In this document: positions 4,019 through 61,545 of the stretch, piece by piece | Numbering within the stretch: the first letter of the stretch is position 1 | Layout: every line of letters starts with the position of its first letter | NCBI RefSeq assembly: GCF_000466165.1 | Contig: NZ_KE951406.1 | Location: 1-64,000 of the forward strand | DNA length: 64,000 bases | DNA from: Actinobaculum sp. oral taxon 183 str. F0552 | GTDB lineage: Bacteria; Actinomycetota; Actinomycetes; Actinomycetales; Actinomycetaceae | Direction of reading: 5' to 3' | Notes under the pieces: model-generated | What the model saw: the letters and a program-made list of their open reading frames with translations, nothing else | Told to the model about the DNA's origin: nothing | Database searches by the model: none | Made by a program: the position numbers and the translations under genes

Positions 4019-4033
4019 TTTCCCGACTCGGGG

Positions 4034-4069
4034 TTCCCCAAACTCGATCACAATAGTAAAGTTGGGGAA
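4034..4069. terminator. Inverted repeat after the ABC exporter
   Basis: TTCCCCAA (4034-4041) pairs with TTGGGGAA (4062-4069), with partial extension inwards. It lies 16 bases after the exporter stop codon and has no U-tract. It could be a terminator or an operator for ilvD; position favours the former. Confidence 0.35.
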
Positions 4070-4195
4070 GCCTAACCGAATTCCGCCGAGGATCGAACAC
4101 GGTGAGGATCACGTGGGTCAAGCGCTGTTCACATAATGAAAACCTAAGTAGAGGCCGGCCGGGGTGCGGCGTATGCTTGCACCCTGGGAGGTTCT

Positions 4196-6031: not shown

Positions 6032-6152
6032 CCCAAAGAGAGAGCATGGGACTCCAGCCCCAGACTCATACATGTCACCTGCGTCATACTTACAGTGGCA
6101 GTTTCTCTTTGGTCGATTATGTATCGGTGGCCGTATACGAAGGAGGATTCTA

Positions 6153-7754: not shown

Positions 7755-7782
7755 GGATCCCGCTGGCCAAGCGGCCTCCGTC

Positions 7783-9054: not shown

Positions 9055-9403
9055 CGTTCCACCTTAGGGCGTGCGGGACTGGGACGGCCGGGAGGCTCGG
9101 GCGGCAGCGACTCAAACCACAGTGATAAGCAATTCACTGATTTGTCGAGGGGGCCGAAAGTCCGAGGTGTACAGGTGTCCTCGAATCGCGACCGGGTCGA
9201 TCGACCTCCCGGTGGGGCGATATGCGCCGCTGGCCTTCTCCGGTGCGTGTCCGAGGACTGGCGGAAGGCGGGAGCGGGAGGGAGAGCGCCGGGAAAGCCC
9301 GTTTCGACAATCAAGTGGCTCGCATTGCGAGATCGTGATTCAAATAGTGAGACAAACTCCGACTGGCTTGGCATCTGGCCGGTTCTGCGGCTATGGTCAA
9401 CCT
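9055..9403. promoter_or_regulatory. Divergent thrE-ilvB intergenic region with the ilvB promoter
   Basis: No gene is seen in this 350-base stretch. A promoter for the ilvB leader can be read near its end: TTGGCA (9368-9373), 18 bases, TATGGT (9392-9397). The expected start point falls at about 9404, the first base of the leader peptide GTG codon, which implies a leaderless transcript. Confidence 0.55.
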
Positions 9404-9430
9404 GTGAGAACTCTTCTGGTACGTAACTGA
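9404..9430 (+). CDS. ilvBNC leader peptide (MRTLLVRN)
   Basis: GTG AGA ACT CTT CTG GTA CGT AAC TGA encodes an eight-residue peptide with consecutive Leu-Leu-Val codons. It lies 34 bases before a rho-independent-type hairpin and upstream of ilvB. Actinobacterial ilvB operons are known to use short leader peptides rich in branched-chain residues for attenuation, often beginning MRT. No ribosome site precedes the GTG, which fits leaderless initiation. In this model, lack of charged Leu/Val tRNA stalls the ribosome and favours antitermination. Confidence 0.7.
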   Translation: MRTLLVRN

Positions 9431-9464
9431 CGCGCTGCACAAGCCGTTGGCGACGTGCCGCGCG

Positions 9465-9486
9465 CCCCTCGTTCGAGGGGTTTTTT
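9465..9486 (+). terminator. ilvB attenuator (rho-independent terminator)
   Basis: CCCCTC and GAGGGG form a short GC stem with a GTTC loop, followed at once by six T residues (9481-9486). It stands between the leader peptide and the ilvB ribosome site, the place expected for an attenuator. I did not resolve the competing antiterminator stem. Confidence 0.75.
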
Positions 9487-9553
9487 CATGCCTGCCGAAG
9501 CACGGCCCCTGGCCTGCGATGCCCGGTGTGCCGCCACAACGAAGGAGGAAGAG

Positions 9554-11380
9554 ATGGCAAAACGGCAAACGCCGACCGACTCGTCGACAGGCGCAGATGA
9601 ACAGGCCGCCACCCCGCGAGTGATTCGCGAGAAGTCAACGGGGGCGCGGTCGATCATACGCGCGCTCGAGGAGCTCGGCGTCGAGGTCGTCTTCGGCATG
9701 CCGGGAGGTGCGATCCTCCCGACGTATGATCCGATCTTCCACGCTAAGCTCCGGCATATCCTGGTGCGCCACGAGCAGGGGGCGGGACATGCCGCCGAAG
9801 GATACGCGCTGGCCACCGGCCGGGTCGGCGTTTGCATCGTGACGTCGGGTCCGGGTGCGACGAACCTCGTCACCTCGCTCCTGGACGCGCACATGGATTC
9901 AGTCCCGATAGTAGCGATCACCGGCCAGGTCGGCGCTGCCGCCATCGGCACGGACGCCTTTCAGGAAGCGGACATCGTGGGCATAACGATGCCGGTGACG
10001 AAACACTCCTTCCTCGTCACGAGTGCAGAGGAGATTCCTTCTCGCATCGCCGAGGCGTTTTACTTGGCTTCGACGGGTCGTCCCGGGCCGGTTTTGGTCG
10101 ACGTCACGAAATCCGCCCAGGTCGAGGAGGCGGACTTCGTGTGGCCGCCCGTACTCGATCTGCCCGGGTACCGTCCTGTGACTAAACCGAACGCACGGCA
10201 AATCCGGGAAGCCGCACGACTCATCGCGACGTCGTCGCGTCCGGTGCTGTATGCGGGAGGCGGGGCGATGCGCGCGGGAGTGTCCCGTGACCTCGTCGAA
10301 CTCGTCGATTTGTCCAACGCGCCGATTGTCACGACTCTGACCGCGCGTGGCGTGGTGCCCGACTCACATCCGAACAACCTCGGGATGCCCGGTATGCACG
10401 GAACGGTTCCCGCTGTGGCCGCCCTCCAGAAGTCCGACCTCATCGTGGCTTTGGGGGCGCGTTTCGACGATCGCGTGACGGGAAAGGTCTCCGATTTCGC
10501 TCCCAATGCCAAAGTCATTCACATTGACATCGACCCGGCGGAGATCTCGAAAAACCGCCTGGTGGACGTCCCGATCGTCGGGGATCTCAAAGACGCCACG
10601 TCGGATCTCGTCGCCGAATTGCGCGAAGCCCACCGTCAATACGGTGTGCCCGATCTGGAGGAGTGGTGGAAGACGCTGGCCGGTTTGCGAGAGAGGTACC
10701 CAGCTGGGTGGGAGGAGGTCGACGACGGCCTGCTCGAGCCGCAGCATGTCATTTCCCGTCTAGCGAAAACCGTCGGGTCTGACAACACCATCTACGTTAC
10801 CGGCGTCGGCCAGCATCAGATGTGGGCGAATCAGTTCCTGAACTTCGAACACCCACGACAGTGGCTGAGCTCGGGAGGCGCGGGGACCATGGGATTCGGA
10901 GTCCCGGCTGCCATGGGAGCCAAAGTCGGACAACCCGACAAAACAGTCTGGGTGATCGACGGGGACGGCTCCTTCCAAATGACTAACCAGGAACTGGCCA
11001 CTTGCTGCCTCGAGGGGATCGATATCAAGATCTGCATCATCAACAATTCCTCGCTGGGCATGGTCCGCCAATGGCAGTCGCTTTTCTACGGCGAACGCTA
11101 TTCGCATACGGATCTCAATACAGGTCATGGAACGCGCCGCATACCTGACTTCGTCAAGCTAGCCCAGGCTTACGGCTGCGAAGCATGGCGCGTCGAAGAG
11201 GGCGACGACATCGACGCCGCCTTTGAAAAAGCAATGGAGATCAACGACCGTCCGGTGCTGTTGGAGTTCGTCACCTCTCCGGACTCCGAAGTATGGCCTA
11301 TGGTTCCCGCCGGGGTGTCAAATGACGACATCGTTTACGCTCGTTCCGTTCGTCCCACGACCGATCCGTTCGCGGCCTGA
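9554..11380 (+). CDS. ilvB: Acetolactate synthase, large (catalytic) subunit
   Basis: The 608-residue thiamine-diphosphate enzyme condenses two pyruvates, or pyruvate with 2-ketobutyrate, as the first common BCAA step. Visible motifs are the catalytic glutamate in [14 protein letters not shown], the FAD/central domain with [11 protein letters not shown], and the ThDP/Mg site [12 protein letters not shown]...NN near residue 475. ATG 9554 follows GAAGGAGGAAGAG; the open frame extends 33 codons upstream but that part spans the attenuator. It is followed after 14 bases by ilvN, so both subunits are co-transcribed under leader control. Confidence 0.97.
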
Positions 11381-11394
11381 AAGGAAGGAAAAAG

Positions 11395-11925
11395 ATGAAC
11401 ACACGTCACACGCTCTCCGTTCTGGTCGAAAATAAGCCGGGCGTTCTTACGCGTGTTGCCGCTCTATTCGCTCGACGCGCCTTCAACATACACTCGCTCG
11501 CTGTTGGGGAGACCGAAGACCCCCAGCTTTCGCGCATCACCGTCGTGGTCGATGCCGCCGAACGCCCGCTCGAACAGGTTACCAAGCAATTGAACAAGCT
11601 CGTCAATGTGCTTAAAATCGTCGAGCTCGAACCTGAGTCGACGGTTGAACGGCAGTTGCTCCTAGTCAAGGTGTCGGCCAGTGATTCCACTCGCGCCAAT
11701 GTCCTCCAGGTCGTCGATCTCTTCAGGGCGCATGTCGTGGACGTCGTTCCCGACACTGTGACGATCGAGGCAACCGGTTCGGAATCCAAGGTCCGGGCAT
11801 TCCTGTCGGCCCTCGAACCGTATGGAATTCGTGAAATCGTCCAATCCGGAGCGGTGGCGATCGGACGCGGTTCGCGTTCGCTCTCCGAACGTGTCTCTGC
11901 CGAATTGTCGCTTCTGCGCGCATAA
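11395..11925 (+). CDS. ilvN: Acetolactate synthase, small (regulatory) subunit
   Basis: The 176-residue protein starts with an ACT domain (HTLSVLVENKPGVLTRVAALFARRAFNI) that binds valine for feedback inhibition. A C-terminal ALS small-subunit domain (about 85-165) contains the ending YGIREIVQSGAVAIGRG. A GAAAGGAAGGA site precedes the ATG, 14 bases after ilvB. The length is normal for the family. Confidence 0.97.
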   Translation: MNTRHTLSVLVENKPGVLTRVAALFARRAFNIHSLAVGETEDPQLSRITVVVDAAERPLEQVTKQLNKLVNVLKIVELEPESTVERQLLLVKVSASDSTRANVLQVVDLFRAHVVDVVPDTVTIEATGSESKVRAFLSALEPYGIREIVQSGAVAIGRGSRSLSERVSAELSLLRA

Positions 11926-11953
11926 TTGATTAGCGAAAGCGCTGGGCGGCTGA

Positions 11954-13060
<1,107 letters not shown>

Positions 13061-13114
13061 CCAGCTCTCGATCGACACCCGAAGGAAGTACAGGTAAACT
13101 TCTGGCCTACTAGG

Positions 13115-13153
13115 CGGTTTCGGGTGCCCAGGTGTCTCGGGCACCCGAAACCG
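13115..13153. terminator. Terminator hairpin after ilvC
   Basis: CGGTTTCGGGTGCCC (13115-13129) and GGGCACCCGAAACCG (13139-13153) are a perfect 15-base inverted repeat with a 9-base loop. There is no U-tract, as is often seen in GC-rich actinobacteria. It lies 54 bases after ilvC and marks the end of ilvBNC. Confidence 0.8.
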
Positions 13154-13332
13154 TCGGCGTGCGAACTTCCAAAATTTTACGACAGTTTCGTCATCAAATT
13201 CGCTATGTGCCTTCAAATGTCAGTGTTCACAACAGTTTTCCGATTTCGACATTGCGACATGTCGGTGGAACGGACGCCGGCGCCCGCCTACAGTTGGACC
13301 GTTGGAACAAAGGCATGCGGAGGGAGAGCGCA

Positions 13333-13878
13333 ATGGCCGATGTCGTGGTCGTCTACAATACCGTCACCGGGTTCGCGCAGACATACGGAGAGTGGATTGC
13401 CGAAGATCTGGGAGCGCGTCTGTATCCGTGGTCGCAAGCCAAGGGAATCGACCTGTCAGGAGCCGATCTGGTTGTCTACGGCGCTGGCGTGCGCATGAGC
13501 AGGATTCGAGGATTCCATGAATTCCGCAGAAAAATCAAGCGGGAGAACCTCATGGGGAAAGTCGTCGTCTGGGCCAATGGCGGTACGCCGGTCCACCCTC
13601 AACGTGACTGGAGAGTCCCCGCTGGAACTTTTACGAAGAAAGAACTCGCCAGTGGATGCTATCCCTTCTTCTATTTCCAAGGCGGTGTTCGCTATGAAGG
13701 ACTCAGCTTTCCGGAAAAAACCTTGCTCAAAATCTTCTCCAAGCGGATTCAGAGATACCGACATCGCGGAGAGTGGGTAGTCCAAGTGGCGGACAACATT
13801 GCGCACGGATATGACCACACCTCACGTGCTGCGATCATTCCACTTGTGAACAAGGCCCGAGAGATGCTAGGCGAGTAG
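13333..13878 (+). CDS. Flavodoxin domain protein (HemG/flavodoxin_5-like)
   Basis: The 181-residue protein begins MADVVVVYNTVTGFAQTYGEWI. The N-terminal strand followed by a T-x-T-G-type phosphate loop is the flavodoxin FMN-binding start. LSGADLVVYGAGVRMSRI and MGKVVVWANGGTP are the next fold elements. Relatives include protoporphyrinogen oxidase HemG and general flavodoxin-like proteins. GGAGGGAG precedes ATG 13333; the frame is open upstream through the ilvC terminator, which is not expected to be coding. Redox role is probable, specific reaction unknown. Confidence 0.75.
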   Translation: MADVVVVYNTVTGFAQTYGEWIAEDLGARLYPWSQAKGIDLSGADLVVYGAGVRMSRIRGFHEFRRKIKRENLMGKVVVWANGGTPVHPQRDWRVPAGTFTKKELASGCYPFFYFQGGVRYEGLSFPEKTLLKIFSKRIQRYRHRGEWVVQVADNIAHGYDHTSRAAIIPLVNKAREMLGE

Positions 13879-13918
13879 TGCCTGTCTCTTTCTTTCGTGG
13901 AGAGGATATTATTCTCCT

Positions 13919-14617
13919 ATGAAGTTTCTATTACGTGAGCATAGAAAATGGGGCTGGAAGAAGCGAATCGTGATTACCTTGGGAGTTATCGTCACTTCGG
14001 GCTTATTCGCTGTGGGTGGGATTAACATATATGTCACTGTGACGACCAATGATCGTGTCGTTTCGGATGTCGGCGGCATTCGTGCTGAGAAACTTGACTG
14101 CATACTTGTTCTTGGAGCGTTGGTACGCTCGGATGGAACGCCTTCGCATATGCTCCGAAAGCGGCTGGAAAAGAGTCTGGAATTGTACAAGCAGAAAGTT
14201 GCGCCGAAAATCCTTGTATCCGGAGACAATTCTAGTGTTCACTATAACGAGACAAATGTCATGCGGAAATGGTTGGAAAAGCATGAAGTTCCTAAAGAGG
14301 ATATTTTCGAAGACCACGCGGGATTTTCAACTTATGAATCAATGTATCGTGCAAGTGCCATCTTTAAAGCACATTCAATAGTCGTTGTGACGCAAAGATA
14401 CCATTTAGCGCGTTCTATTTATATAGGTCGTGAGCTTGGTCTGGATGTCTGGGGCATTGCTTCGGGAGGGAATAACTACTCACAGCAATTCAAGCGTGAT
14501 GTTCGCGAGTGGATTGCGAGAACTAAGGATTTCGTTCAAGTCGTTATTAAGCCGAAACCAAAGTACTTGGGTCCAGTCATTCCGATAGACGGCAACGGAA
14601 CCATCGAAAATCGTTAA
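13919..14617 (+). CDS. SanA/YdcF-like DUF218 membrane protein
   Basis: The 232-residue protein has one N-terminal membrane segment (about 15-37) and a DUF218 domain: DCILVLGALVRSDGTPSHML, KILVSGDN, YNETNVMRKWLE, STYESMYRA and VVTQRYHLARSIYI. In E. coli SanA this family affects envelope permeability and vancomycin resistance at high temperature. It starts 40 bases after the flavodoxin gene. Base composition is much more AT-rich than its neighbours, which suggests transfer. Exact function is unknown. Confidence 0.82.
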   Translation: MKFLLREHRKWGWKKRIVITLGVIVTSGLFAVGGINIYVTVTTNDRVVSDVGGIRAEKLDCILVLGALVRSDGTPSHMLRKRLEKSLELYKQKVAPKILVSGDNSSVHYNETNVMRKWLEKHEVPKEDIFEDHAGFSTYESMYRASAIFKAHSIVVVTQRYHLARSIYIGRELGLDVWGIASGGNNYSQQFKRDVREWIARTKDFVQVVIKPKPKYLGPVIPIDGNGTIENR

Positions 14618-14696
14618 TTATTTGTCATTAATTGCCATTAACTTCTTTGTATTTCATTACAAATCCCGGAATTCTAATCCAATATATTTATATTAT

Positions 14697-15569
14697 TTAA
14701 GTATAAATGAAATCCATAATTTTAGGAAGATCTCGTTTAGCTTGTTGAAGGCCCTCTTCGTATGCTGCTTGAACGCTAACGGCTTTTCGTTCTCCGTTCG
14801 AGATGGGCATCTCGTCAGGATAGTAGAGATAAGCCCGTCCTTCGGCTTCGAGGCTCTCCAAACGATCAAGAGAGTCATTGTACTTTTTCGGTCGATTGAG
14901 AAGAGCCTCGGCTACGGCAGGATGCTTTCGAAAGATTCCCTTATAAATCGCCGGTGGGATTTTCGACGGGGATTTCCTATATCCACGCTTACGCGTCATA
15001 ACGACAACGAAACGTTCATATCCGTCGGCTTCCGCGGCGTCAATCGCAAAACCCCCTGTGTCTCCGATGGCTCCGTCCAGGTAGGCCACGCCGTTCAGCC
15101 CCACTGGCGGCATGATGATCGGCATCGAGGAGGAAGCTTGACAGTACGTGACGAGTTCTTCCTGCGTGGAGATGTCCTCTCGGCCCCAGTAGACGGTTTG
15201 TCCCGTTTCGCAGTTGAACGAGCCGATTTTGAACTGCGTGGCGCTCGCGTTGAAAGTGTCCCAGTCGAAGGGAAGGAGTTCGCCGGGACCAGAGGTGTGC
15301 TGGTAAATGTACTCGGAGTTGAAGTAGCCCCTGCCGCGAACAAAGCTGATCGGGCCGCCTAGATTCGGATCCTTGGCGAGTTCGACGAAAGCTGCACGTG
15401 CCCTCCACGCGTCGCGGGAGACGAAGTTGCATGTGTGGGTCGCCCCGGCGGAGATCCCGCCGACCCATGGGAAGTCGATACCAGCGTCAATCATTTCGGC
15501 GACCAGTGCGGCCGTATATGTGCCACGCATTCCGCCACCCTCGAATATCAATGCGGTTCGTGTGCTCAT
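14697..15569 (-). CDS. Patatin-like phospholipase family protein (RssA-type)
   Basis: The protein of about 290 residues has the patatin fold: oxyanion loop EGGGMRG near the N-terminus, nucleophile elbow GISAGA (G-x-S-x-G serine) near residue 42, and the catalytic aspartate in DGAIGD. It is expected to be a serine lipid acyl hydrolase in the cytoplasm or at the membrane. TTG 15578 is a possible earlier start; ATG 15569 is preferred. It is convergent with the SanA-like gene. The 3' third is AT-richer than the 5' part. Confidence 0.85.
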   Translation of the reverse strand: MSTRTALIFEGGGMRGTYTAALVAEMIDAGIDFPWVGGISAGATHTCNFVSRDAWRARAAFVELAKDPNLGGPISFVRGRGYFNSEYIYQHTSGPGELLPFDWDTFNASATQFKIGSFNCETGQTVYWGREDISTQEELVTYCQASSSMPIIMPPVGLNGVAYLDGAIGDTGGFAIDAAEADGYERFVVVMTRKRGYRKSPSKIPPAIYKGIFRKHPAVAEALLNRPKKYNDSLDRLESLEAEGRAYLYYPDEMPISNGERKAVSVQAAYEEGLQQAKRDLPKIMDFIYT

Positions 15570-16547
15570 AAATTCCAAGGATATCTCGGATGCTATGTCA
15601 GCGGGGCGACCCTTTCCCCGAGCGAAATCGGCCCAGGCGGATAGCGTCGGCTGATCGATCCGTCACAGGCCACGGCATATAAATTAGGTGCAATCTCGAT
15701 ATTCTTACACAGCGAAATTTTCGAAAGTCGCATTGACTCGCTATATTATGAATAATAACATAAATTATGTGATGTTACATTACAATAAATGACTAATCAT
15801 TTTCTATTTTCTATTAAAATTCAATGATGGAATTTTCTATTAAGGACATACTCGTGACCTCAGGAAGAACTGGGCGGCGTGTCCGCTGTTGAGTGAGAAA
15901 CGTTAAGGTGAGTTCCTCTCCTGTCACCGGGAGCAAATCAAAGCTGAGCACAGCGAGTAGGGTGCGTTATCTGATAATTGAGCAAATTTGTCAATCTTGT
16001 CATCCGACTCATGTGCTGCCGCACCCATTTTCGTCAGTCAAGATGACGGCAACAAATTTACCGTCCCTATCTGTCATAGGGTAGCAGACTAGTTGAAATT
16101 CGAGAGTCTATTCCCACGGAATGATGTCGACCGACATGTTTAACGACATGTCTAACACGTTATTGCAAATTTTTGGTCATAAATTGTCAGAATTAATCAG
16201 AAGGTTATATGTAGAAGAATAATGATAAAATAATTGAATGTAATGATTATTATTACGCATAGCTAAGTAAATAACATATTGCAAAATAGACGATTGAAGC
16301 ATTCGCATTATTGCAAATTAATAATCTGGATAAAAATATATGAGAAAGTTACAAAAATTGATTTGATAGTTGTATTTTTGTTGAAAGTAAAAATATTAAT
16401 AATAAAATATTGTAGTTGAATTATTACATTTTATTTACTTTTTGTCATTAGTTGATATAATTAACGCTACCATGTCGCGGGACATAAGTTATATATTTAT
16501 AATAATTATTACTTCACTATGTTAGAATAATATATGTAAAACGTTAA
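15570..16547. other. Very AT-rich non-coding block
   Basis: Almost 1 kb has no credible gene; one 63-codon frame at 15893-16084 lacks a ribosome site and coding character. From about 15680 to 16555 the DNA is strikingly AT-rich, in sharp contrast to the GC-rich genes on both sides. It holds a near-palindrome ACATAAATTATGT (about 15770) and several GACAT/ATGTC repeats (16124-16156 and 16472-16485). It may be the edge or control region of a mobile element. Confidence 0.6.
16124..16156. repeat. GACAT dyad and tandem repeat
   Basis: ATGTCG-AC-CGACAT (16124-16137) is a perfect inverted repeat. It overlaps two tandem 12-base units, GACATGTTTAAC (16133-16144) and GACATGTCTAAC (16145-16156), that differ at one base. 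Another ATGTC-GCGG-GACAT dyad lies at 16472-16485. They resemble iterons or operator sites; function is inferred. Confidence 0.55.
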
Positions 16548-16877
16548 TTATGACGATGAAATTGATTTGGACTCGTCATGCTCGGTACGGTCGGGGTGGG
16601 GGTGGTCATGGGTTACATCCGTGAGGCGAGGAAGTGGAAGCCTTTGAGTAGGAGGTTGGCGACTGCTCCGATGATGGTGCCCAGTAATGGGCAGGGATAC
16701 GGTGTACATGACCGCGCAGGCGCCGAGCAGGACGAGGATCATTCCGGTTTTGCGGTTGCCTTTGCCCAGCCAGCGCCACAGGCCGATCAGGATGGACATG
16801 GCGCCGAGGACGCGGATGATCCCGCCGGCGTTGACGGCGGCGATGACTGAGGGCAGGTCTTGGAAGACGTTGTGCAT
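16548..16877 (-). CDS. Small membrane protein of a mobile element
   Basis: The 109-residue protein has two hydrophobic segments (about residues 15-35 and 44-63, around VLGAMSILIGLWRWLGKG and MILVLLGACAVMYTVSLPI). A hydrophilic, His/Ser/Arg-rich C-terminal tail runs into the AT-rich block. The layout is like small pilin- or PrgI-like membrane proteins of conjugative elements, but no family motif is decisive. GAAGGGAGAG precedes the ATG. The odd tail suggests the gene may be truncated or fused to foreign DNA at its 3' end. Confidence 0.6.
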   Translation of the reverse strand: MHNVFQDLPSVIAAVNAGGIIRVLGAMSILIGLWRWLGKGNRKTGMILVLLGACAVMYTVSLPITGHHHRSSRQPPTQRLPLPRLTDVTHDHPHPDRTEHDESKSISSS

Positions 16878-16920
16878 GGGGCTCTCCCTTCTCGCGGGTG
16901 GGGGCGGGCGCGGCTGCGAC

Positions 16921-16941
16921 TCGCTCGGATAGTGTGCGGAC
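16921..16941. promoter_or_regulatory. Shared upstream motif, copy 1
   Basis: A 21-base element containing CGGATAGTGTGCGGAC lies 44 bases upstream of the small membrane protein gene (minus strand). It matches the element at 18032-18052 at 19 of 21 positions. Common placement before two genes of the same element suggests a shared promoter or operator. Confidence 0.5.
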
Positions 16942-16992
16942 AGCCCCGGGCCGGCGTCGTGGCCCGCCCGGCGGGCGCTTGCCGGGAGGTTG

Positions 16993-18003
16993 TCAAGGAC
17001 TGGCTGGAGCGGCTGTGGTCGGGCAGGTCGGGGCCCGGCGGGTGGTGGCGATCATGACTGCTGAGCGCCATAGTTGCTCGGCTAGGGCGGGGTGGGCGCG
17101 TAGTAGGTCGACGATCTCGGTTTTCTCCCGGTCGGATAGGTCCCGGCCGTGGAAGGGGGCGAACAGGGCGTCGGTGGCCGCGTCGTCCTGGCCGGTTTCC
17201 CATCGGCGGGCGGCGGCCAGGACCCCGCCGGGGGAGGTGTCCATGGTTCGGCGCAGCCCGGTGGCGGCCCGGCGGGGGATGGTCTGAGGGGCGATCGCGC
17301 CGGGGAATTTGGCCTGCCAATAGTGCTCGGTCAGGGCGCGCCGGCCGCGGATCGCCTCGGGCGGCTCGAAGCGCTCGTCGGCTCGCCGGTCGGCCTGGGC
17401 GGCCCACTGCTCCTCGGCGCCGGGACAGGAGGGGGCCTGGCCATCGGTGAGGTCCTCGTAGGAGTGGCAAGCGGCCACGCCGGTGCGGCGGATGTCCATG
17501 GCAGTGCCGGCCCGGCGGGCTTCGATCCGGGCGAGCTGGTCGTGTTCGGCCTCGCTCAGCGGCCGACCCAGCCGGGTCTGGGCGTCGCGGGCGGCCGCGG
17601 CGTAGGCGGCCCAGGCGCGCATGAGGTGCGAGTTGCCGCGGCTCATGCGGGTGTGCAGGCTGTCGGTGCGCATGTGGTGGACGTGCCGGGCCCAGGAGCC
17701 GTCGATGATCCGGGAAACCTCGCCGGCGGTGATGGTGGGGTGGTCGGGGTCGGCGGCTGTGGCGCGTTCGTAGACGAACTCGAAGGTGTTGGCCTCGAAT
17801 TCCTCGGCCAGGTCGCGCCGGTCGGCCACGTAGGCCAGGGTGGCGATGCGCCGGGCGCCGGCGGCCCGGATCCGGTCCAGGACATAGGCCACGTCGGCCT
17901 CCTCGGCCAGGTCGAGTCGCACCCCGGCCGAGCCAATCCGGCTGGTTCGGCCCCATCGGCCGTCGGGGGTGCGCGGCTGGGTCAGGTAGGCGGTACCGCT
18001 CAT
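16993..18003 (-). CDS. Hypothetical protein of GC-rich mobile-element fragment
   Basis: The 336-residue protein is not recognised. It is soluble, rich in Ala and Arg, mostly helical in appearance, and has no signal peptide or clear catalytic motif. It starts at ATG 18003 after AAGGAGAG, so translation is well supported. The very high GC content differs from the chromosomal genes here and matches its neighbours at 16.5-18.7 kb, which supports common origin from an integrative or plasmid element. A regulator-like motif shared with the membrane protein gene lies just upstream. Confidence 0.65.
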   Translation of the reverse strand: MSGTAYLTQPRTPDGRWGRTSRIGSAGVRLDLAEEADVAYVLDRIRAAGARRIATLAYVADRRDLAEEFEANTFEFVYERATAADPDHPTITAGEVSRIIDGSWARHVHHMRTDSLHTRMSRGNSHLMRAWAAYAAAARDAQTRLGRPLSEAEHDQLARIEARRAGTAMDIRRTGVAACHSYEDLTDGQAPSCPGAEEQWAAQADRRADERFEPPEAIRGRRALTEHYWQAKFPGAIAPQTIPRRAATGLRRTMDTSPGGVLAAARRWETGQDDAATDALFAPFHGRDLSDREKTEIVDLLRAHPALAEQLWRSAVMIATTRRAPTCPTTAAPASP

Positions 18004-52423: not shown

Positions 52424-53110
52424 TTACGAATCGATATGATGCAAACCGTTCCTATAAGCATAAATAATAGCCTGTGCCCTATCGCGGAAACTGAGCTTGG
52501 AGAAGATACGATTGACGTAGGTTTTGACCGTCGCCGGAGAGAGGAAGAACCGATCAGAGATTTCGGGATTCGACAGTCCCTGGGCTATGGCGTAGAAGAC
52601 CTCCCGTTCACGCGGGCTGAGTGAGTCGATGTCTCGGCGGGGCTCCTCCTTTTCCGAATCCGTTTCGGGCATTGGAATGATGCGTCGGGTATACATGTCG
52701 ATCAGCTGTCTGGTGATGCGCGGCTCGACCACGGCTTCGCCGCTGGCGACGATCCGCACCGTACGGATGAGCGCTTCCGGTGAGCTGCTTTTCAGAATGA
52801 AAGCACTGGCGCCCGCGTCCAAAGCGCCGAAGGCGTATTCGTCGAGGTCGAAAATCGTCAGGGCGATCACCCTGATATCGGGGTGGGCGGACACTATGCG
52901 TCGAGTGGCGTCGATTCCTCCCATTCCGGGCATAAGGATATCCATGAGCACGATGTCGGGTTTGGCTTCCGCAATCGCGTGAAGGGCTTCTTCGCCCGTG
53001 TCGGCCTCGCCGACGACCACGATGTCGTCTGTCGCGTCGAGCAGGAGCGCATTGCCTTCGCGGTATAGTTCTTGGTCGTCGACGAGGACGACACGGATGG
53101 CTTCTTTCAT
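52424..53110 (-). CDS. NarL/LuxR-family response regulator
   Basis: The 228-residue regulator has a receiver domain with acidic pocket VLVDDQE, phospho-acceptor Asp57 in IVLMDILMPGM, and ALTIFDLDEYAFGAL / ILKSSS at the switch positions. A LuxR-type HTH follows: LSPREREVFYAIAQGLSNPEIS...SPATVKTYVNRIFSKL. It overlaps its kinase gene by four bases and is convergent with the GH3 gene. Targets are unknown; the FtsX-type ABC transporter and lasso operon nearby are candidates. Confidence 0.93.
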   Translation of the reverse strand: MKEAIRVVLVDDQELYREGNALLLDATDDIVVVGEADTGEEALHAIAEAKPDIVLMDILMPGMGGIDATRRIVSAHPDIRVIALTIFDLDEYAFGALDAGASAFILKSSSPEALIRTVRIVASGEAVVEPRITRQLIDMYTRRIIPMPETDSEKEEPRRDIDSLSPREREVFYAIAQGLSNPEISDRFFLSPATVKTYVNRIFSKLSFRDRAQAIIYAYRNGLHHIDS

Positions 53111-54303
53111 CGGTGCGTTGCCGTCCCTCCGTTATCGTCGACGACCAGGAAGGCGTGCGTCCGCCATCCTCCGTCCGGTCGTGGGCCGGCCGTGCTGCCG
53201 CCGTCGTACTTCGCTGCGCGGGCGGAGATTCCGCGAAGGCCTCGACCCGAGCCGACCCTTGTCACGTCATGAATGGGTGCGTCGTCGGTGATTGCGATGT
53301 CGATCCGGCCCTTCTCGATTGTGATCTCGACTTCCACGTACTGGGCGCCGTGAGCGTAGCGCAAGGCGTTCGTCAAACCTTCCTGCACGATCCGAAAGAC
53401 GGTCGTTTGCAGCTCGGGTCTATTTGCCGGTAGTTTTCCGCGTTCCGTCAATTGCACTGGGAGGCCGGCTGAGCGGAAGACCTCCACGAGGTCTTCCAGG
53501 GATTCTCTGCCTGCATTTTTTTCGGCGTCACCGCTGCCGACGTTATCATCGCAGGGAAGGAGGCGAAGGATGTGCCCCATGTCCACTAGGGCGGTGCGTC
53601 CGACTTGCGAGAGGCTGTGGAGGGCTCGCGTCGATCGCTCGGGATATTTCGACCATGCCGACGCTGCTCCATTGGCTAAGGCGATCATGGTCGAAAGTGA
53701 GTGCGCCACGACATCGTGCATGTCGGCGGCGATCCTGGCGCGTTCGGCGGTCTTGGCGTGCTCTATGCGCTCTTTCCACAGTTCAGCCAGTAGCGCGTGT
53801 CGCTGCCGATGTCCGCGGATGGCCGTTCCGGTGGCCAAGGCGGCTAAAGCGAAGGGGGAGAAGACCGTGGGCGAGTATCTCGCCTGCGTGATCGTGCACT
53901 GCATGAGCGCCGTACCCACGGGTAGAAGCACGCCTACGGCGTAGCCGAACAGCCCCCGGCGATACCCTTGAAGGCTGGCGACGGCGTAAAGCGCGAAAGC
54001 GAACGGGAAATCGCGGAAATCGGTGAAGTCGATGGCTGAAACGACGCTGCTGAATGCGACTGCGGCGATGAGCGTCCCAAACGGGAGTCTCCTCCTCCAG
54101 AAGAGCACGGCGCTGATCCCAAGAGCCGGAAGGCTCAATTCCCTCCCTGAGAGCTTGACGGACAGGACTTGGATTGAGACGCAGGTGACGACCGCGAGCC
54201 AGTCAGCCGACCTCGGGTGCCGGGACATCCATTCTCGGACGGGCCAGATCCGACGAGCGATGTCCCGCCAGCTCTCTTCGTCTTCGATAGTTTTGCCTGA
54301 CAT
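53107..54303 (-). CDS. Two-component sensor histidine kinase (HisKA_3)
   Basis: The 398-residue membrane kinase has several hydrophobic segments in residues 35-165. A dimerisation/phospho-acceptor motif RIAADMHDVVAHSLS (histidine near 205) follows, with an HATPase domain with N-box QEGLTNALRYAHGA and G-box GSGRGLRGISARA. It shares an ATGA overlap with the response regulator. With so little outside the membrane, it probably senses a membrane-associated signal. Confidence 0.92.
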   Translation of the reverse strand: MSGKTIEDEESWRDIARRIWPVREWMSRHPRSADWLAVVTCVSIQVLSVKLSGRELSLPALGISAVLFWRRRLPFGTLIAAVAFSSVVSAIDFTDFRDFPFAFALYAVASLQGYRRGLFGYAVGVLLPVGTALMQCTITQARYSPTVFSPFALAALATGTAIRGHRQRHALLAELWKERIEHAKTAERARIAADMHDVVAHSLSTMIALANGAASAWSKYPERSTRALHSLSQVGRTALVDMGHILRLLPCDDNVGSGDAEKNAGRESLEDLVEVFRSAGLPVQLTERGKLPANRPELQTTVFRIVQEGLTNALRYAHGAQYVEVEITIEKGRIDIAITDDAPIHDVTRVGSGRGLRGISARAAKYDGGSTAGPRPDGGWRTHAFLVVDDNGGTATHR

Positions 54304-54781: not shown

Positions 54782-56110
54782 TCACTTCGCGACGATGGCC
54801 TGCAGATAGCGTCCCGTGACGAAGGCGCCCAAGCGGACGAGGGCTGTTCCCGTTCCCAGACAGGCAAGGGCGATCCCGAAGGACCAAGGCGACGTCACCA
54901 CTGAGATCGCCACCAGCGGGAACAGGGCGACGACGGCGAGCGCCGCCGGCCCTACCACGGAGACGGCCAATGGCGCCATCACGCGTCTCAGGTGTGCATC
55001 CTTGAGGAGGCGAACGGGCGCCCCCATGTAGGTGAGAGCGAGGTACAGGTCGCGTCGTTCGGCGATCCCGGCTATCTGGTAAACGACGCTTGAACACGCA
55101 ACGAGGATGAAGGCTGAAATGGTCACCAGAAGCACAACCCATCGTACGTCGTCGAACAGGATCAGCTCTCTGTGGGTCAACTGTGTCGGTCCTCGGGTCA
55201 CAGCGTTGAGAAATCCCAGTATCGAACACGCCGGAACGACGAGGAAGCTCATCAGCGCCAGCGGCGAGACCTGGCGCCATGCGGCGGCGGGGTCTTCCAA
55301 GAGCGCCCGCGCCGTGACGAGTTCCGCGGGAGAGTAGTCTTTGAGCAGGAGGCGGTTCCCCCTTCGTCGGACGAGGTACGGGCCCAGCAGATTCCATATG
55401 GACATGAGAACGAGCATGGCGAGGATAAGGACCAGTACGATCACCACCACTCCCCAGCTCGCGCTCGCCAGATGCATGGCGCTCAGGCATGCCGTGAGCG
55501 CCACGATCGCCACAACTACTCGCGTTCCCCTCACGATCGGAGGCCTGTCCCTCGCGCTGACGCTCATCGGCGCGTTCACTGCGCGGTTGAGGCGGTGTAT
55601 CCCGCTGAGAATGGCCGCGAGGACCAGACCCGACGCTACGACCGCCGTTCCCTCCCAGGAGGGTCGGACATCGATTGGATGGGGTGTCCCCTCGTCTTCT
55701 CCGAAGGAGATGAGGTCCATGATCGGTGCGACGAGGAGGGAGCCGCACCAGCCGATCGCGACTCCGATGCACGAGGGGATGGCGACTTCGCAAACCACCA
55801 GCAGACGGGATGCGGCCGCAGACATGCCGAGCAGTCGCAGCGTGGAGACTTTGCCCTCCTGCTGCCTCGACTGCATTCGCGCTGAGGCCGCGCTCACGGC
55901 CGTCACTGGGACGAGCAGGCAGGCCAGGCTCATGGCGGCGAGGACCATGTAGGCCTCGTGCCGGTCGCCCAAATGCCAAAGCTTCCATGCGAGTCCCGCG
56001 ATGGTGAAGCTGACGAATCCTGCGACGGCGGACGTGGCAGCCGGAGTCGCCGAGGCCATGGCGCTCTGCCTCGACGGACGTAGAAGCCAGGCGAATGCGC
56101 GGGGGTTCAT
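54782..56110 (-). CDS. ABC transporter permease (FtsX/MacB-type)
   Basis: The 442-residue membrane protein has about ten predicted membrane segments and two FtsX-like halves. Conserved stretches are SARMQSRQQEGKVSTLRLLGMSAAA and IAGIAERRDLYLALTYMGAP, the region that contacts the ATPase. It overlaps the ATPase gene by four bases. Such systems export peptides or lipids or provide resistance to membrane-active peptides. Its location next to a lasso peptide operon suggests immunity or export, but this is inference. Confidence 0.85.
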   Translation of the reverse strand: MNPRAFAWLLRPSRQSAMASATPAATSAVAGFVSFTIAGLAWKLWHLGDRHEAYMVLAAMSLACLLVPVTAVSAASARMQSRQQEGKVSTLRLLGMSAAASRLLVVCEVAIPSCIGVAIGWCGSLLVAPIMDLISFGEDEGTPHPIDVRPSWEGTAVVASGLVLAAILSGIHRLNRAVNAPMSVSARDRPPIVRGTRVVVAIVALTACLSAMHLASASWGVVVIVLVLILAMLVLMSIWNLLGPYLVRRRGNRLLLKDYSPAELVTARALLEDPAAAWRQVSPLALMSFLVVPACSILGFLNAVTRGPTQLTHRELILFDDVRWVVLLVTISAFILVACSSVVYQIAGIAERRDLYLALTYMGAPVRLLKDAHLRRVMAPLAVSVVGPAALAVVALFPLVAISVVTSPWSFGIALACLGTGTALVRLGAFVTGRYLQAIVAK

Positions 56111-56820
56111 CGTTGGCTCGGCCTTCCCTGGATTCTGGCGTCGTGGATTTCGGCGACGCGGTCGCAGCGTGAGGCAACAGCCGGATCGTGAGTGACCATG
56201 ATGAGCGTCCGCCCCTGTTCGGTCGTCGCCTGCAACAGTTCCTCCACGACGGCTTCAGCGGTGAGGGAATCGAGGGAGGCCGTCGGCTCGTCGGCGAATA
56301 TGATCTGCGGGTCGGTCGCCGTGGCACGTGCGATGGCCACGCGCTGGGCCTCCCCTCCGGAGAGCTCTCCCGGCCTCTGGCCGCTGTAGGCGGACAGACC
56401 GACGCTCGTCAGCCGATCCATGGCGACCTTCAAAGCCTCCTTCTTGGTCATTCCGTCGAGGAGGCATGAGAGGGCGACGTTCTCGCCCGCCGTCAGGTCG
56501 GGGAGAAGCATGTCCCTTTGGAAGACGAAACCGAGGTGACGCCGGCGAATCCCGGTCCGCTCCCGTGCGGACAGAGCCGAGACCTCGACGTCGCCGCGGT
56601 CGGATCCGTAGACGACGCTCCCCGAATCCGGAACGTCGATTCCCGAGATGAGATGGAGAAGGGTCGACTTGCCGGAGCCGCTGTGCCCCATTATCGCCAA
56701 GGACTCGCCTGCTCGAACGCTCAGCGTCGCTCCGGCGAGGATCGTGCGTTTGCCGAACGATTTCCAGAGGTCGACGACGCCTACCTCTCCCGTGAACGCC
56801 ATCCGTTCCTGCGATTTCAT
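56107..56820 (-). CDS. ABC transporter ATP-binding protein (MacB/LolD-type)
   Basis: The 237-residue ATPase has Walker A GHSGSGKST, Q-loop FVFQRDMLLPDL, signature LSGGEAQR, Walker B IIFADEPTASLDS and switch His in MVTHDP. ATG 56820 follows GAGGAGGG; the longer frame to 56904 would run into the lasso promoter region. It is divergent from the lasso precursor gene, with 73 bases between the start codons. Confidence 0.93.
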   Translation of the reverse strand: MKSQERMAFTGEVGVVDLWKSFGKRTILAGATLSVRAGESLAIMGHSGSGKSTLLHLISGIDVPDSGSVVYGSDRGDVEVSALSARERTGIRRRHLGFVFQRDMLLPDLTAGENVALSCLLDGMTKKEALKVAMDRLTSVGLSAYSGQRPGELSGGEAQRVAIARATATDPQIIFADEPTASLDSLTAEAVVEELLQATTEQGRTLIMVTHDPAVASRCDRVAEIHDARIQGRPSQR

Positions 56821-56893
56821 CCGCCCTCCTCGGTGGTACCAGTCCAACCGATGATAGGGACGCCGCCTCCGCGGAACTGCCAACCAGGGGTTG

Positions 56894-57118
56894 ATGTACG
56901 CCACTCTTGTCGATTTCTATTCTCTGGAGACAAGCGTCCGCAAGACGCTGACCGTCGCAACCGCGACGGTCGAGAAAACCATCCAAGAAAAGAGGAATAT
57001 CATTTCTCAGGATGTTTACGAGGCTCCGGCCATGCTCAAGGTCGGCGGCTTCGACGAGCTCACCAACGCCACCCGCAGGGGCTACTGGGTTGACTTCCTG
57101 GGCGGTTGGTGGTTCTAA
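56894..57118 (+). CDS. Lasso peptide precursor
   Basis: The 74-residue peptide ends with a leader of the actinobacterial lasso type, Y-x2-P-x5-G-x-F-x3-T (YEAPAMLKVGGFDELT). The conserved Thr at position -2 places cleavage after LTN, giving the core ATRRGYWVDFLGGWWF (57068-57115). Asp9 is the only acidic residue, so the expected ring is Ala1-Asp9 with a seven-residue tail FLGGWWF plugged by bulky Trp. The leader is long (58 residues), but no later ATG, GTG or TTG start exists. AGGGG precedes ATG 56894. The complete processing set follows on the same strand. Product activity is unknown. Confidence 0.88.
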   Translation: MYATLVDFYSLETSVRKTLTVATATVEKTIQEKRNIISQDVYEAPAMLKVGGFDELTNATRRGYWVDFLGGWWF

Positions 57119-57144
57119 CCGCCGTTGCCTGTGAAGGCATTTCG

Positions 57145-57189
57145 GAGGTGGCCGTCTCCCATCGCGACCGCGAAGCAGACGGCCACCTC
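57145..57189 (+). terminator. Hairpin between lasso precursor and cyclase genes
   Basis: GAGGTGGCCGTCT (57145-57157) and AGACGGCCACCTC (57177-57189) form a perfect 13-base stem with a 19-base loop. It lies 26 bases after the precursor stop and just before the cyclase ribosome site. It may act as a partial terminator or mRNA stabiliser that keeps precursor levels above enzyme levels. Confidence 0.7.
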
Positions 57190-57211
57190 TCCACTGGGAA
57201 AGGAATCGTGC

Positions 57212-59011
57212 GTGGACGTCATCGTGCTTCCCGACACCGAGAAGACCGCCGGCATCCATGACGTCATCCGGCGTCATGGATACTCATGCTCGATCCACCA
57301 CTCCTCGGGCAGACCGTGGATCCTCGGAAGATGGGGGAGCCGAGAAGCGCGGGAGGCGACGGCGTCGAACTGCCGGATGGCGCTACTCGGGCTCGTAGGC
57401 GCACACGATGACGCTCTAGACCGTGCGGTCCGCTCCATCCGTTCGTTTCGGGACGTCGACGCCCTCTACGACAGAGTTCCCGGCTCCTACATCACAGCGG
57501 TCGCTTTCAACGGGTCCACCAGGGTCCACGGCACGCTGGCGGCCACCCACGAGATCTTCTACGCGGATGTCGACGGCATCGTCGTCGCGGCGAACAAGGC
57601 GTCGATCCTAGCGCGCATCGCAGAGCGCGCGATTCGAAGGGAAATGCTGGCGACGACCCTGCTGGCGCCCCGAGCCCCCTGGCCGCTCTCCGATCGGCCG
57701 CTGTGGAAAGGCGTGGAGCATGTGCCGGTCACCGATGCCCTGGAGTTGCATCCCGACGGCCGTGGAGTCATCGTGCCCCGATGGAGCTATCCGGCGCACC
57801 GAGAGCCGCTGACGGATATCGCCCCCCGATTGCGGGCTGCCCTGGAAGCCGGCGTTCGAGCGCGTGCGGATGCGACCCCTGTGCTCGGCTCCGACCTGTC
57901 GGGTGGACTGGACTCGACGACCCTCGCGTTCTATGCGGATCGACATGCCCAACGGCTGGTCACCGTACGGCAGGACGCCTACGATGCGACGAATGACGAC
58001 GTGAAGTGGGCTGCCCTCGCCCGGAGCAGGATGGGCACCGGCGACCACATCCGGATGGAGCCGGACGTCGCCCCCTGGTATGCGGAATGGAATTCGACCT
58101 CGGACGGCGACCCGAGCTCGCCGTACCCCGCCCTGAGAACGCTCGGATTCACCCGGGCACTGGCGGAACGGCTCCATGACCGAGGCGTGACGATCCATCT
58201 CACCGGGCTCGGCGGCGACGAACTCTTCTCGCCGTCGTTCACTCACCTGTACTCCCTCGTCCGGAGGCATCCTCTTCGGGCATTCCGGCCGATGCGCGGT
58301 ATGCAGGCGATCGCCCGTTGGAAGACCGCCCGGACCATCCGCGCGCTGACCCGGAGGATGCCGCACTCCGTGTGGTTGAGGGACATGGCCGGCCAACTCC
58401 GCCAGCCGGATTCGAACGGCCCCGAACAGTACTGGGAGCCTGAAGCCCGGGCGTCTTCCTGGGCCACGGCTGCAGCTGTGAGCCAGTCGGGCGAGCTCAT
58501 ACGCGAGGCGGCTGACCTCCTCGGCGAGGAAACCCCGGACACTCTTCCCGTGGACTTCGAGATGCTGCGGCTGGTCAACGCCGACGGACGCCTGATCCGA
58601 CGCATGTCACAGGTGGCCGAACGGCATGGCGTCGCCTTTGACGCCCCCTACCTGGACGACGCGGTCGTGGACCTCGCCTTCAGGACCCGATTGGAGGATC
58701 GTGTGTCGCACGGAGTGTTCAAACCCGTGCTTCAAGCAGCCGTTCCGGAGAATTTCCCCCATGAGCTCCTCTCCCGCAGATCCAAGGGAGACTACAGCGC
58801 CGAAGCGTATTCGGGGCTCGCTCGCAATCGCGGATCCATGGTGAGAGAGTTCGCGGAGGGGTCTCTTCTCCAGGAAGAGGGACTCATCGACGCGGAGGCG
58901 TTCCGCGAATTCCTCACCGCCGTGCACCCGAGCACCCAGCCGTTTCGCTTCCTCGACGCCACGCTTGGAGCGGAGATGTGGCTGAGAACCGTTCACAACG
59001 TAAAAGGATGA
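57212..59011 (+). CDS. Lasso peptide macrolactam synthetase (asparagine synthase-like, C protein)
   Basis: The 599-residue ATP-dependent cyclase activates the Asp9 side chain and joins it to the new N-terminus. It has the family N-terminal segment (VIVLPDTEKT ... SSGRPWILGRW) and the asparagine-synthetase ATP motif SGGLDSTT near residue 230, with LTGLGGDELFSP further on. GTG 57212 follows GGAAAGGA; the frame is open earlier, but that part covers the hairpin. Its stop overlaps the ATG of the next gene (ATGA). Confidence 0.93.
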   Translation: MDVIVLPDTEKTAGIHDVIRRHGYSCSIHHSSGRPWILGRWGSREAREATASNCRMALLGLVGAHDDALDRAVRSIRSFRDVDALYDRVPGSYITAVAFNGSTRVHGTLAATHEIFYADVDGIVVAANKASILARIAERAIRREMLATTLLAPRAPWPLSDRPLWKGVEHVPVTDALELHPDGRGVIVPRWSYPAHREPLTDIAPRLRAALEAGVRARADATPVLGSDLSGGLDSTTLAFYADRHAQRLVTVRQDAYDATNDDVKWAALARSRMGTGDHIRMEPDVAPWYAEWNSTSDGDPSSPYPALRTLGFTRALAERLHDRGVTIHLTGLGGDELFSPSFTHLYSLVRRHPLRAFRPMRGMQAIARWKTARTIRALTRRMPHSVWLRDMAGQLRQPDSNGPEQYWEPEARASSWATAAAVSQSGELIREAADLLGEETPDTLPVDFEMLRLVNADGRLIRRMSQVAERHGVAFDAPYLDDAVVDLAFRTRLEDRVSHGVFKPVLQAAVPENFPHELLSRRSKGDYSAEAYSGLARNRGSMVREFAEGSLLQEEGLIDAEAFREFLTAVHPSTQPFRFLDATLGAEMWLRTVHNVKG

Positions 59012-59274
59012 CAATGCCGTACAAGTTGGGCCAACAGTTCAAATTCACACAGACGGAAGGGGGAGGCGTGCTCCTCGATCTGACGAAGGGGGAGTACTGG
59101 CAGCTCAACGAACTCGGCGCTCTCCTGGTCGATCGCCTCTCCGGCGGCGGCCTGCCTCGAGACGTCGTCGAAGAGCTCGCTGCAGCCTATCCCGATTCGG
59201 CTGACCGCGTCGACGGCGACGTCCGCAGGCTCCTCGACCAGCTCATGGGGATCGGAGCGATCGACCATGAGTGA
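59008..59274 (+). CDS. Lasso peptide RRE protein (PqqD-like, B1)
   Basis: The 88-residue RiPP recognition element binds the leader (Tyr/Pro/Phe positions) and presents the precursor to the peptidase and cyclase. GVLLDLTKGEYWQLNELGALLVDRL and the C-terminal RRLLDQLMGIGAI are typical of PqqD-like B1 proteins. ATG 59008 overlaps the cyclase stop; ATG 59014 is an alternative. It overlaps the B2 gene by eight bases. Confidence 0.93.
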   Translation: MTMPYKLGQQFKFTQTEGGGVLLDLTKGEYWQLNELGALLVDRLSGGGLPRDVVEELAAAYPDSADRVDGDVRRLLDQLMGIGAIDHE

Positions 59275-59704
59275 CTTCGTCGTCGTCCCCCGGCCGGACT
59301 CCCGCCTGGGCATTCGGCGCAGACTCCTGGCGCTGGCAGCCGTCGGCTACGCACGACGTCTCGCCCGGAAGAAGCCGGACGCGCTGGAGAGGCGGCTGCG
59401 CCGAATCAGCCGAGCGGCCCGCCCGGCTCGGGTCGAGGAAGCTATAGCCGCACACCGTGCGGTCGTCAGTGTCAGCACTCGCTGCTCCGGCAGGTGGTGC
59501 CTCGACCGCTCCATCGCAATCGCCCTGCTTCTGCGCATGTCAGGCGCTTGGCCCGAATGGCACACGGGCGTTTGCCTCCTGCCTTTCCGGGCGCACGCCT
59601 GGATCACGGTCGACGGCGAGCCGATCGGCGAGCCGGAGGGGTTGAGGGACAACTTCAAGCCGCTTATGACCGTCGTGGCCGGCGGGAAGAACCGTGGACG
59701 TTGA
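59267..59704 (+). CDS. Lasso peptide leader peptidase (transglutaminase-like, B2)
   Basis: The 145-residue cysteine protease removes the leader. The catalytic Cys is in GRWCLDRSIAIALLLRMSG (about residue 78), the His in FRAHAWITVDG (about 111), and an acidic residue in GEPIGEP completes the triad. WPEWHTGV between them is a family hallmark. It overlaps both neighbours, so translation is coupled. Confidence 0.94.
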   Translation: MSDFVVVPRPDSRLGIRRRLLALAAVGYARRLARKKPDALERRLRRISRAARPARVEEAIAAHRAVVSVSTRCSGRWCLDRSIAIALLLRMSGAWPEWHTGVCLLPFRAHAWITVDGEPIGEPEGLRDNFKPLMTVVAGGKNRGR

Positions 59705-61514
59705 ACCGCGCGGCCGCGCGCGCGCCGATCGAGGCCAGTTCTCCCTGCTGGTCAGGCAGATCCGTCCGTATTGGAGACGGTTCCTCGTGGCGATTCTGCT
59801 GGGAGTCGCCGCGTCCACGCTCAGTCTGCTGCAGCCCGCCCTCATCGCCAGCATGGTCACCGCGTTGGAGAACTCGACCGGGATCCTCCCCTCGGTTCTC
59901 CTTCTCCTCGCCCTGCTGACGACGTCCGCAGCGTTGTCGGGATTCCAAACCTATGCGCTCGGCACACTCGGAGAACAGGTGACGGGCAGGATCCGCATGA
60001 CGTACGTGCGGGCTGTCTTGCGCCTGCCCGTCTGCGCACTCGAAGCCTACCGACGGGCCGACCTCGTGGCTAGGGCGACGTCCGATACCACCCTGCTCCG
60101 CGTCGCGCTCACGGAAGGCGCCGGCCAGATCATCGGCGGCGTGATCATGTTCGTCGGCGCGCTGATCGCCATGGCCTTCGTCAGCCCCCTTCTGCTGCTG
60201 GCGACTGTGGTGACCGTGACGATCGGGTTGGTGTGCGTCATGGCCCTGTCGGGTCGGCTCCGCAATGCATCCACCCAGGTCCAAGAAGGCGTGTCGTCGC
60301 TCGGCTCGTCTCTGGACCAGAGCATTTTCGCGTCCAAGACGATCCGGTCCCTGAACGCCGCGGACTGGGCGATCTCCCGCGTCGACCGCACCATCGACGC
60401 GGCGAAGCAGGCCGGAATCCGCTTTGCCCGGGTTTCATCCGCCGTCACGCCGCTTTCGGGGGTGGTGATGCAGCTCTGCCTCGCGGTCGTCCTCGGACTC
60501 GGCGCGTTCCAAGTCGCGAACGGAACCCTTCCCGTGGCGCAGCTGGTGGCATTCGTCATGTACGTGTTCCTCCTCCTGACACCCGTCGGCCAGGCGGTGA
60601 GAGCCATGACATCGCTGTCGCAGGCCACCGCAGCCGCAAGGCGCCTCGCCGAGGTGGAGGAGGAGGCCGAGGCTCCTGAGGAGCGGTCAGGCCGGGGAAC
60701 GGCTCAGGCGACATCGGTTTCCGGCCCGACACCGGTGCCGGAGGCGAACGACGCTTGCGCAGTCGAATTCGCCGACGTTCACTTCGCCTATCCGGCAACC
60801 GGAGGCGGTGCGACGGCCGGCGAGCCGAAACCGGCCCTTCGCGGAGTCACATTCGCCGTTCCGCCGGGGGCGAAGGTCGGGATCGTCGGGCCGTCGGGCT
60901 CGGGCAAGAGCACCATCCTCAATCTCATCGCGGGTTTCTACTCGCCGCAGAGGGGATCCGTCCGCATAGCGGGAATCGCCGAGGCCTCCGATCCGGATGT
61001 GCGGGACAGAGGGCTCATAGGCCTCGTGGAACAGGACGCCCCGGTCATCGCGGGCACCCTCCGCGACAACCTCACGCTCGGCGACCCGGAGATCGGCGAG
61101 GCCGACTGCCTCCAGGCGCTGTCACGCGTGAACCTCGACCACCTGTACAGTCGCGACCGAGGCGGCCTCGATCTCGAACTGTCGGATCAGGGGACGAACC
61201 TGTCAGGCGGTGAGAGGCAGCGCCTGGCCATCGCGCGCGTTCTGCTTCGAAGACGGCTGATCCTGCTTCTGGACGAGTCCACGTCCCAAATGGACAGCGA
61301 CAACGAACAGAAGCTGCGGGATGCTGTAGCCGAGGCGGGACGCCGTCGCACCACCATCGTGGTGGCCCATCGTCTGTCGACGATCGTCGACAGCGATTTC
61401 ATCCTGGTCGTCAGAGACGGAGAGATCGAAGCCGTCGGCCGTCACAGCGAACTCGTCGCCACGAGCCCGACGTACTCCGTGTTCGCAGACCAGCAGCGGT
61501 TGATCCGAGGCTGA
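59694..61514 (+). CDS. Lasso peptide ABC exporter (D protein)
   Basis: The 606-residue fused permease-ATPase has six membrane segments in residues 28-310 and an ATPase with Walker A GPSGSGKST, signature LSGGERQR, Walker B LILLLDESTSQMD and switch His in VVAHRLS. It should export the mature lasso peptide and so also protect the producer. GTG 59694 lies within the end of the peptidase gene. A variable, Pro/Ala-rich linker (about 325-360) joins the domains. A terminator overlaps its stop codon. Confidence 0.93.
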   Translation: MDVEPRGRARADRGQFSLLVRQIRPYWRRFLVAILLGVAASTLSLLQPALIASMVTALENSTGILPSVLLLLALLTTSAALSGFQTYALGTLGEQVTGRIRMTYVRAVLRLPVCALEAYRRADLVARATSDTTLLRVALTEGAGQIIGGVIMFVGALIAMAFVSPLLLLATVVTVTIGLVCVMALSGRLRNASTQVQEGVSSLGSSLDQSIFASKTIRSLNAADWAISRVDRTIDAAKQAGIRFARVSSAVTPLSGVVMQLCLAVVLGLGAFQVANGTLPVAQLVAFVMYVFLLLTPVGQAVRAMTSLSQATAAARRLAEVEEEAEAPEERSGRGTAQATSVSGPTPVPEANDACAVEFADVHFAYPATGGGATAGEPKPALRGVTFAVPPGAKVGIVGPSGSGKSTILNLIAGFYSPQRGSVRIAGIAEASDPDVRDRGLIGLVEQDAPVIAGTLRDNLTLGDPEIGEADCLQALSRVNLDHLYSRDRGGLDLELSDQGTNLSGGERQRLAIARVLLRRRLILLLDESTSQMDSDNEQKLRDAVAEAGRRRTTIVVAHRLSTIVDSDFILVVRDGEIEAVGRHSELVATSPTYSVFADQQRLIRG

Positions 61515-61545
61515 CCGGCGCCCCGCCGCCGGCGCCGGTCAGCCC
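61510..61545 (+). terminator. Terminator of the lasso operon
   Basis: GGCTGACCGGCGCC (61510-61523) and GGCGCCGGTCAGCC (61532-61545) are a perfect 14-base inverted repeat. The left arm contains the exporter stop codon. Confidence 0.8.

Follow-up and report, generated by a model that had tools for sequence, protein, structure and literature searches.

A predicted 16-residue lasso peptide operon of Actinobaculum and similar cores encoded across Streptomyces and other actinobacteria

Operon organization

The window, the whole 64-kb stretch (64,000 nucleotides) of Actinobaculum sp. oral taxon 183 str. F0552 that was analysed, carries five genes, A, C, B1, B2 and D, on the + strand between positions 56894 and 61514, each identified with profile HMMs. 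These genes and the neighbouring features are as follows.

52424–53110, − strand: LuxR-type response regulator (presumed role)
53107–54303, − strand: HisKA_3 sensor histidine kinase, candidate regulator (presumed role)
54782–56110, − strand: FtsX-like permease, presumed partner of the divergent ATPase
56107–56904, − strand: ABC ATPase of the LolD/bacteriocin-export type, candidate immunity protein from its position only; start may be 56826
56894–57118, + strand: A, lasso precursor peptide, 74 aa (lasso_leader_L3); start codon uncertain
57068–57115, + strand: predicted core ATRRGYWVDFLGGWWF, ring Ala1-Asp9, tail Phe10-Phe16; Thr-2 and Asp9 conserved in relatives
57119–57211, + strand: GC-rich stem-loop (GGAGGTGGCCGTCT / AGACGGCCACCTCT) between A and C, −42 kcal/mol
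57212–59011, + strand: C, lasso cyclase of the asparagine-synthase-like type (Asn_synthase), 599 aa, GTG start
59014–59274, + strand: B1, PqqD-like RiPP recognition element (RRE; lasso_PqqD_Strm)
59267–59704, + strand: B2, transglutaminase-like leader peptidase with conserved Cys78 and His110 (lasso_biosyn_B2)
59694–61514, + strand: D, MsbA-like ABC exporter whose membrane and ATPase domains are fused (ABC_membrane and ABC_tran)

B1 overlaps B2 and B2 overlaps D, with spacings of 2 bases between C and B1 and of 93 bases between A and C. The frames are open throughout the operon, the SGGLDS, Cys/His and ABC motifs are preserved, and GC3 is high. A sequence-only reading had proposed precursor, cyclase, RRE, peptidase and exporter, all of which are confirmed by an HMM match on the + strand; the genes within its proposed span, 56894–61545, also stand, but the end coordinate lies 31 bases past the stop codon of D (61514).

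The locus combines the characteristics of split-B lasso clusters: a leader with Y-x2-P...T at position −2 and an Asp/Glu 7–9 residues into the core, an Asn-synthetase-like cyclase carrying SGGLDS, and a B1 RRE and a B2 transglutaminase-like peptidase that both score above curated cut-offs. The cluster is real, intact and typical, and belongs to an already known kind. We are highly confident that this actinobacterial operon is a complete lasso peptide system of the split-B type with an Ala1-Asp9 core ATRRGYWVDFLGGWWF and with the enzymes and the exporter D in the proposed roles.

The precursor and the biosynthetic proteins

The leader of A, YEAPAMLKVGGFDELTN, directly precedes the core and matches the NCBIfam model lasso_leader_L3 with 23.4 bits (cut-off 19). 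The combined pattern of leader and acceptor, Y..P.{5}G.{5}T.[6-8][DE], occurs a single time in the six frames of the window. A has two candidate starts, which give leaders of different length. The N-terminal extension (56894–57001, the first 36 codons) is coding-like with a GC3 of 0.69, whereas the leaders of relatives are only ~23 aa long and an alternative in-frame ATT start at 57002, six bases after AGAGG, would give a leader of ~23 residues. The core is unaffected by this choice.

The cyclase C scores 125.6 bits against Asn_synthase, below the NCBIfam cut-off of the albusnodin/ikarugamycin subfamily (260 vs 300) and far under that of lass_lactam_cya (41.5 vs 525). Its start is likely the GTG at 57212 rather than the mechanically assigned TTG at 57125, because AAAGGA lies upstream of the former and the resulting N-terminus has a homologous counterpart in a Streptomyces locus (L013), where the cyclase is read from an ATG at 7914 upstream of the annotated start. 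B1 and B2 match lasso_PqqD_Strm and lasso_biosyn_B2 with 72.2 bits (cut-off 70) and 93.1 bits (cut-off 33), respectively.

Predicted core and product

The best reading of the core is ATRRGYWVDFLGGWWF with a predicted Ala1-Asp9 ring. Thr is located at −2 and Ala at core position 1, and Asp9 is the sole acidic residue of the core. The chemical steps of processing and ring closure are predicted from characterized homologues; threading, export and activity are predictions as well. B1 would bind the leader and pass the precursor to B2, as is established for paeninodin, in which leader binding by B1 is followed by delivery to B2 (PMC5067487). B2 would then cleave between Asn-1 and Ala1, the cyclase would activate Asp9 with ATP and join it to Ala1 in a macrolactam that encloses the tail FLGGWWF, in which Trp14, Trp15 and Phe16 would be the probable plugs, and D would export the product. 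The core contains no Cys, so no disulfide is expected, as in class II lasso peptides. The calculated mass of the dehydrated core is 1997.969 (monoisotopic [M+H]+ 1998.976, [M+2H]2+ 999.992), with a lactam b9-type ion for residues 1–9 at ~m/z 1087.54.

Since threading is not readable from sequence and the tail has just seven residues, the product might instead be an unthreaded, branched-cyclic macrolactam or a peptide cut at other positions, in place of the predicted 16-residue lasso. We consider this very unlikely: independent relatives conserve Thr-2, the N-terminus and Asp9 along with bulky residues close to the C-terminus, and the biosynthetic enzymes are of the standard lasso type.

Related cores and cyclase phylogeny

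The core reading draws its strongest support from comparison with relatives. A plasmid of Streptomyces sp. NBC_00887 (NZ_CP108791.1), which is the best plasmid match of the window cyclase (38% identity), encodes a core, ATYRGFWVDFIGGWWF (WP_331726325.1), that is identical to ATRRGYWVDFLGGWWF at 13 of 16 positions. The two loci share the A-C-B1-B2 order, with cyclases that are 38–39% identical and the plasmid precursor 120 bases before its cyclase; they differ in the short leader of the plasmid precursor (23 residues) and in the replacement of Arg3 by Tyr in the core. No gene is annotated between B2 and the end of this linear record, and hence no exporter is listed for the locus.

A scan of genome contigs with the window cyclase as a single protein gave no match, and a sub-alignment scan returned four Streptomyces loci, one of which (L019) has a truncated cyclase and no precursor that could be found. 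The contig scan identified precursors with the core LTSRGYWLDSPWGAWWF in S. lincolnensis and S. bobili and with LTSRGYWLDSPWGAWWL in S. hainanensis, and profile searches of genomes added the actinobacterial cores ITDKGGYVDLFGGWWLD, ITSSGGWIDSPGWGWWL, LTRDGNWVDSPGWGWWL, SVRRGHWIDFFGGWWL, LTNRGKWADSIWGYYWD and DALRGKWIDSILGWYWL. Matches were obtained in ~2% of the sampled genomes in each of three profile searches (9/395 genomes in the class at E 1e-3; 9/393 in one genus and 7/343 in one family at E 1e-7), counts that include some genomes carrying other lasso types, e.g. siamycin. Several profile matches were rejected as family members, among them a tRNA-synthetase-like frame (L026) and siamycin-type precursors (L023 and L047). 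A scan of viral contigs with the precursor profile found no relative.

There are at least ten related actinobacterial cores, and Gly5 and Asp9 are common to all listed members, so that both the boundary of the core and its ring acceptor have support independent of the window. The sequence-only reading is thereby upheld in its leader motif, its Thr at −2, its Ala1 and its Asp9 acceptor, as related precursors give the same boundary and acceptor. Its description of Arg3-Arg4 and of the WWF tail as unusual is contradicted by the same comparison, since Arg4 recurs across the family, SVRRGHWIDFFGGWWL has the same Arg3-Arg4, and WW[F/L] tails recur in Streptomyces and other actinobacteria.

In the cyclase tree, the window cyclase forms a clade of six (support 99/99) with five cyclases from loci that have family cores. 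The chaxapeptin cyclase and keywimysin-related cyclases fall outside this clade, as do two from the taxonomic family of the window and two from the same genome. The window cyclase is the first to branch off in the clade, and its own branch is long, at 1.29 changes per column. Among the sister genomes of the genus, a close cyclase is absent (27% identity at best), as are close counterparts of the genes flanking the cluster.

The window core has the Gly5, aromatic residue 7, Asp9 and WW[F/L] tail of the ATxRGxWVDFxGGWWF-type family. It belongs to a small and apparently undescribed lasso family whose cores read [A/S/L/I]-x-x-x-G-x-[W/Y]-x-D-...-W-W-[F/L]. We give roughly even chances to the broader proposal that this uncharacterized family (Gly5, [WY]7, Asp9, WW[FL] tail) has a shared target, with functional roles for the conserved basic residue at position 4 and for the Trp-Trp plug, and that it includes a subgroup with adjacent cysteines, xTCCG[KR]W. 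Relatives of the precursor that carry such cysteines within the predicted ring, as TCCG or GCCG, were observed in eight loci (L044–L046, L050–L052, L056 and L057, near 1350–1750 of each; xTCCG[KR]W.D, e.g. MTCCGKWADSIWGYFFD), and in several genomes they lie in tandem. The paired cysteines might form a vicinal disulfide or be modified in some other way. In 15 kb of sequence at L031, no cyclase ORF was noticed beside the family precursor with core ITSSGGWIDSPGWGWWL (7861–7971). The cyclase beside SVRRGHWIDFFGGWWL (L060, 6234–7638) appears split over several frames, which may reflect a pseudogene or an error in sequencing.

Twelve core strings of the family were absent from the literature searched, with supplements and lasso databases outside its scope, and a search there for a lasso peptide with WWF gave chance matches only. 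The predicted product is thus undescribed in that literature, with close relatives encoded in Streptomyces and other actinobacteria. It is a concrete, easily tested product of exact mass from an organism with a small genome of 2.4 Mb, and through the related cores, expression of one member could reveal a family-wide activity.

Comparison with known lasso peptides

The chaxapeptin cluster (S. leeuwenhoekii pSLE2) shares the A-C-B1-B2 order and the YExPxL...GxFxxxT leader with the window; however, its core GFGSKPLDSFGLNFF has Gly1 and Asp8 instead of Ala1 and Asp9, and its cyclase, outside the clade, is ~32% identical to C. Paeninodin has the same Ala1-Asp9 ring as predicted here. Split B proteins are also common to both (PMC5067487). 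In contrast to the window, the paeninodin cluster is from Bacillota, and its product has a longer hydrophilic tail and a phosphorylated C-terminal Ser.

RES-701-1 and RES-701-3 have 16 residues, a nine-residue ring with Asp9 and an aromatic C-terminus. The likeness to RES-701-1 that had been suggested from the sequence holds for length, ring size and the aromatic C-terminus and for nothing beyond; the core sequence is different, as had also been stated. This equal length and ring size, together with the aromatic tail, would be the grounds for regarding the window peptide as a RES-701 type that shares endothelin B receptor activity. The RES-701-3/-4 cluster, however, consists of seven ORFs including ResE, which was proposed for Trp hydroxylation (PMC7280977), and a ResE counterpart is missing inside the window operon, where B2 and D overlap with no extra gene. 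Moreover, the core resemblance is positional only and the true relatives have different cores, and we regard a RES-701-type peptide as exceedingly improbable. Because the similarity is confined to architecture, no shared activity is to be inferred.

Intergenic hairpin, regulation and neighbouring genes

GC-rich hairpins of differing sequence occupy the A-C gap in L013 and L016–L018 as well (five loci including the window). The hairpin is likely an attenuator or an mRNA-stabilizing/3′-end hairpin, and may allow more precursor than enzyme to be made.

The divergent upstream two-component/ABC module is a plausible candidate sensing or immunity system. Together with the exporter, it suggests that the peptide probably functions in competition with other bacteria. 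A Ser/Thr protein kinase lies downstream of the operon, with no evident link to the cluster.

A sigma-70 consensus promoter was not detected upstream of the operon. With the long branch of the cyclase, this would be consistent with a decayed or silent cluster from which nothing is made in the source strain, but this reading is unlikely given the open frames, the preserved motifs and the high GC3 described above.

Other lasso clusters in the source and a sister genome

The source genome also contains a tandem pair of unrelated lasso clusters (L010, G000:C8:22001-42000, 4380–17291), in which short precursors such as TRGGPRGYFRDWHHGRLIWL occur in arrays. Their B2 peptidase domains (Transglut_core3) are fused to an ABC exporter, a fusion for which no description was found in the literature searched; stretches of N lie close to the ends of both fusion ORFs. 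A congeneric genome (L011, G001:C1:534000-548000, 945–5960) encodes several lasso precursors of its own, of the C8 type, e.g. GWFYGPLRDFIGGRGRIVL.
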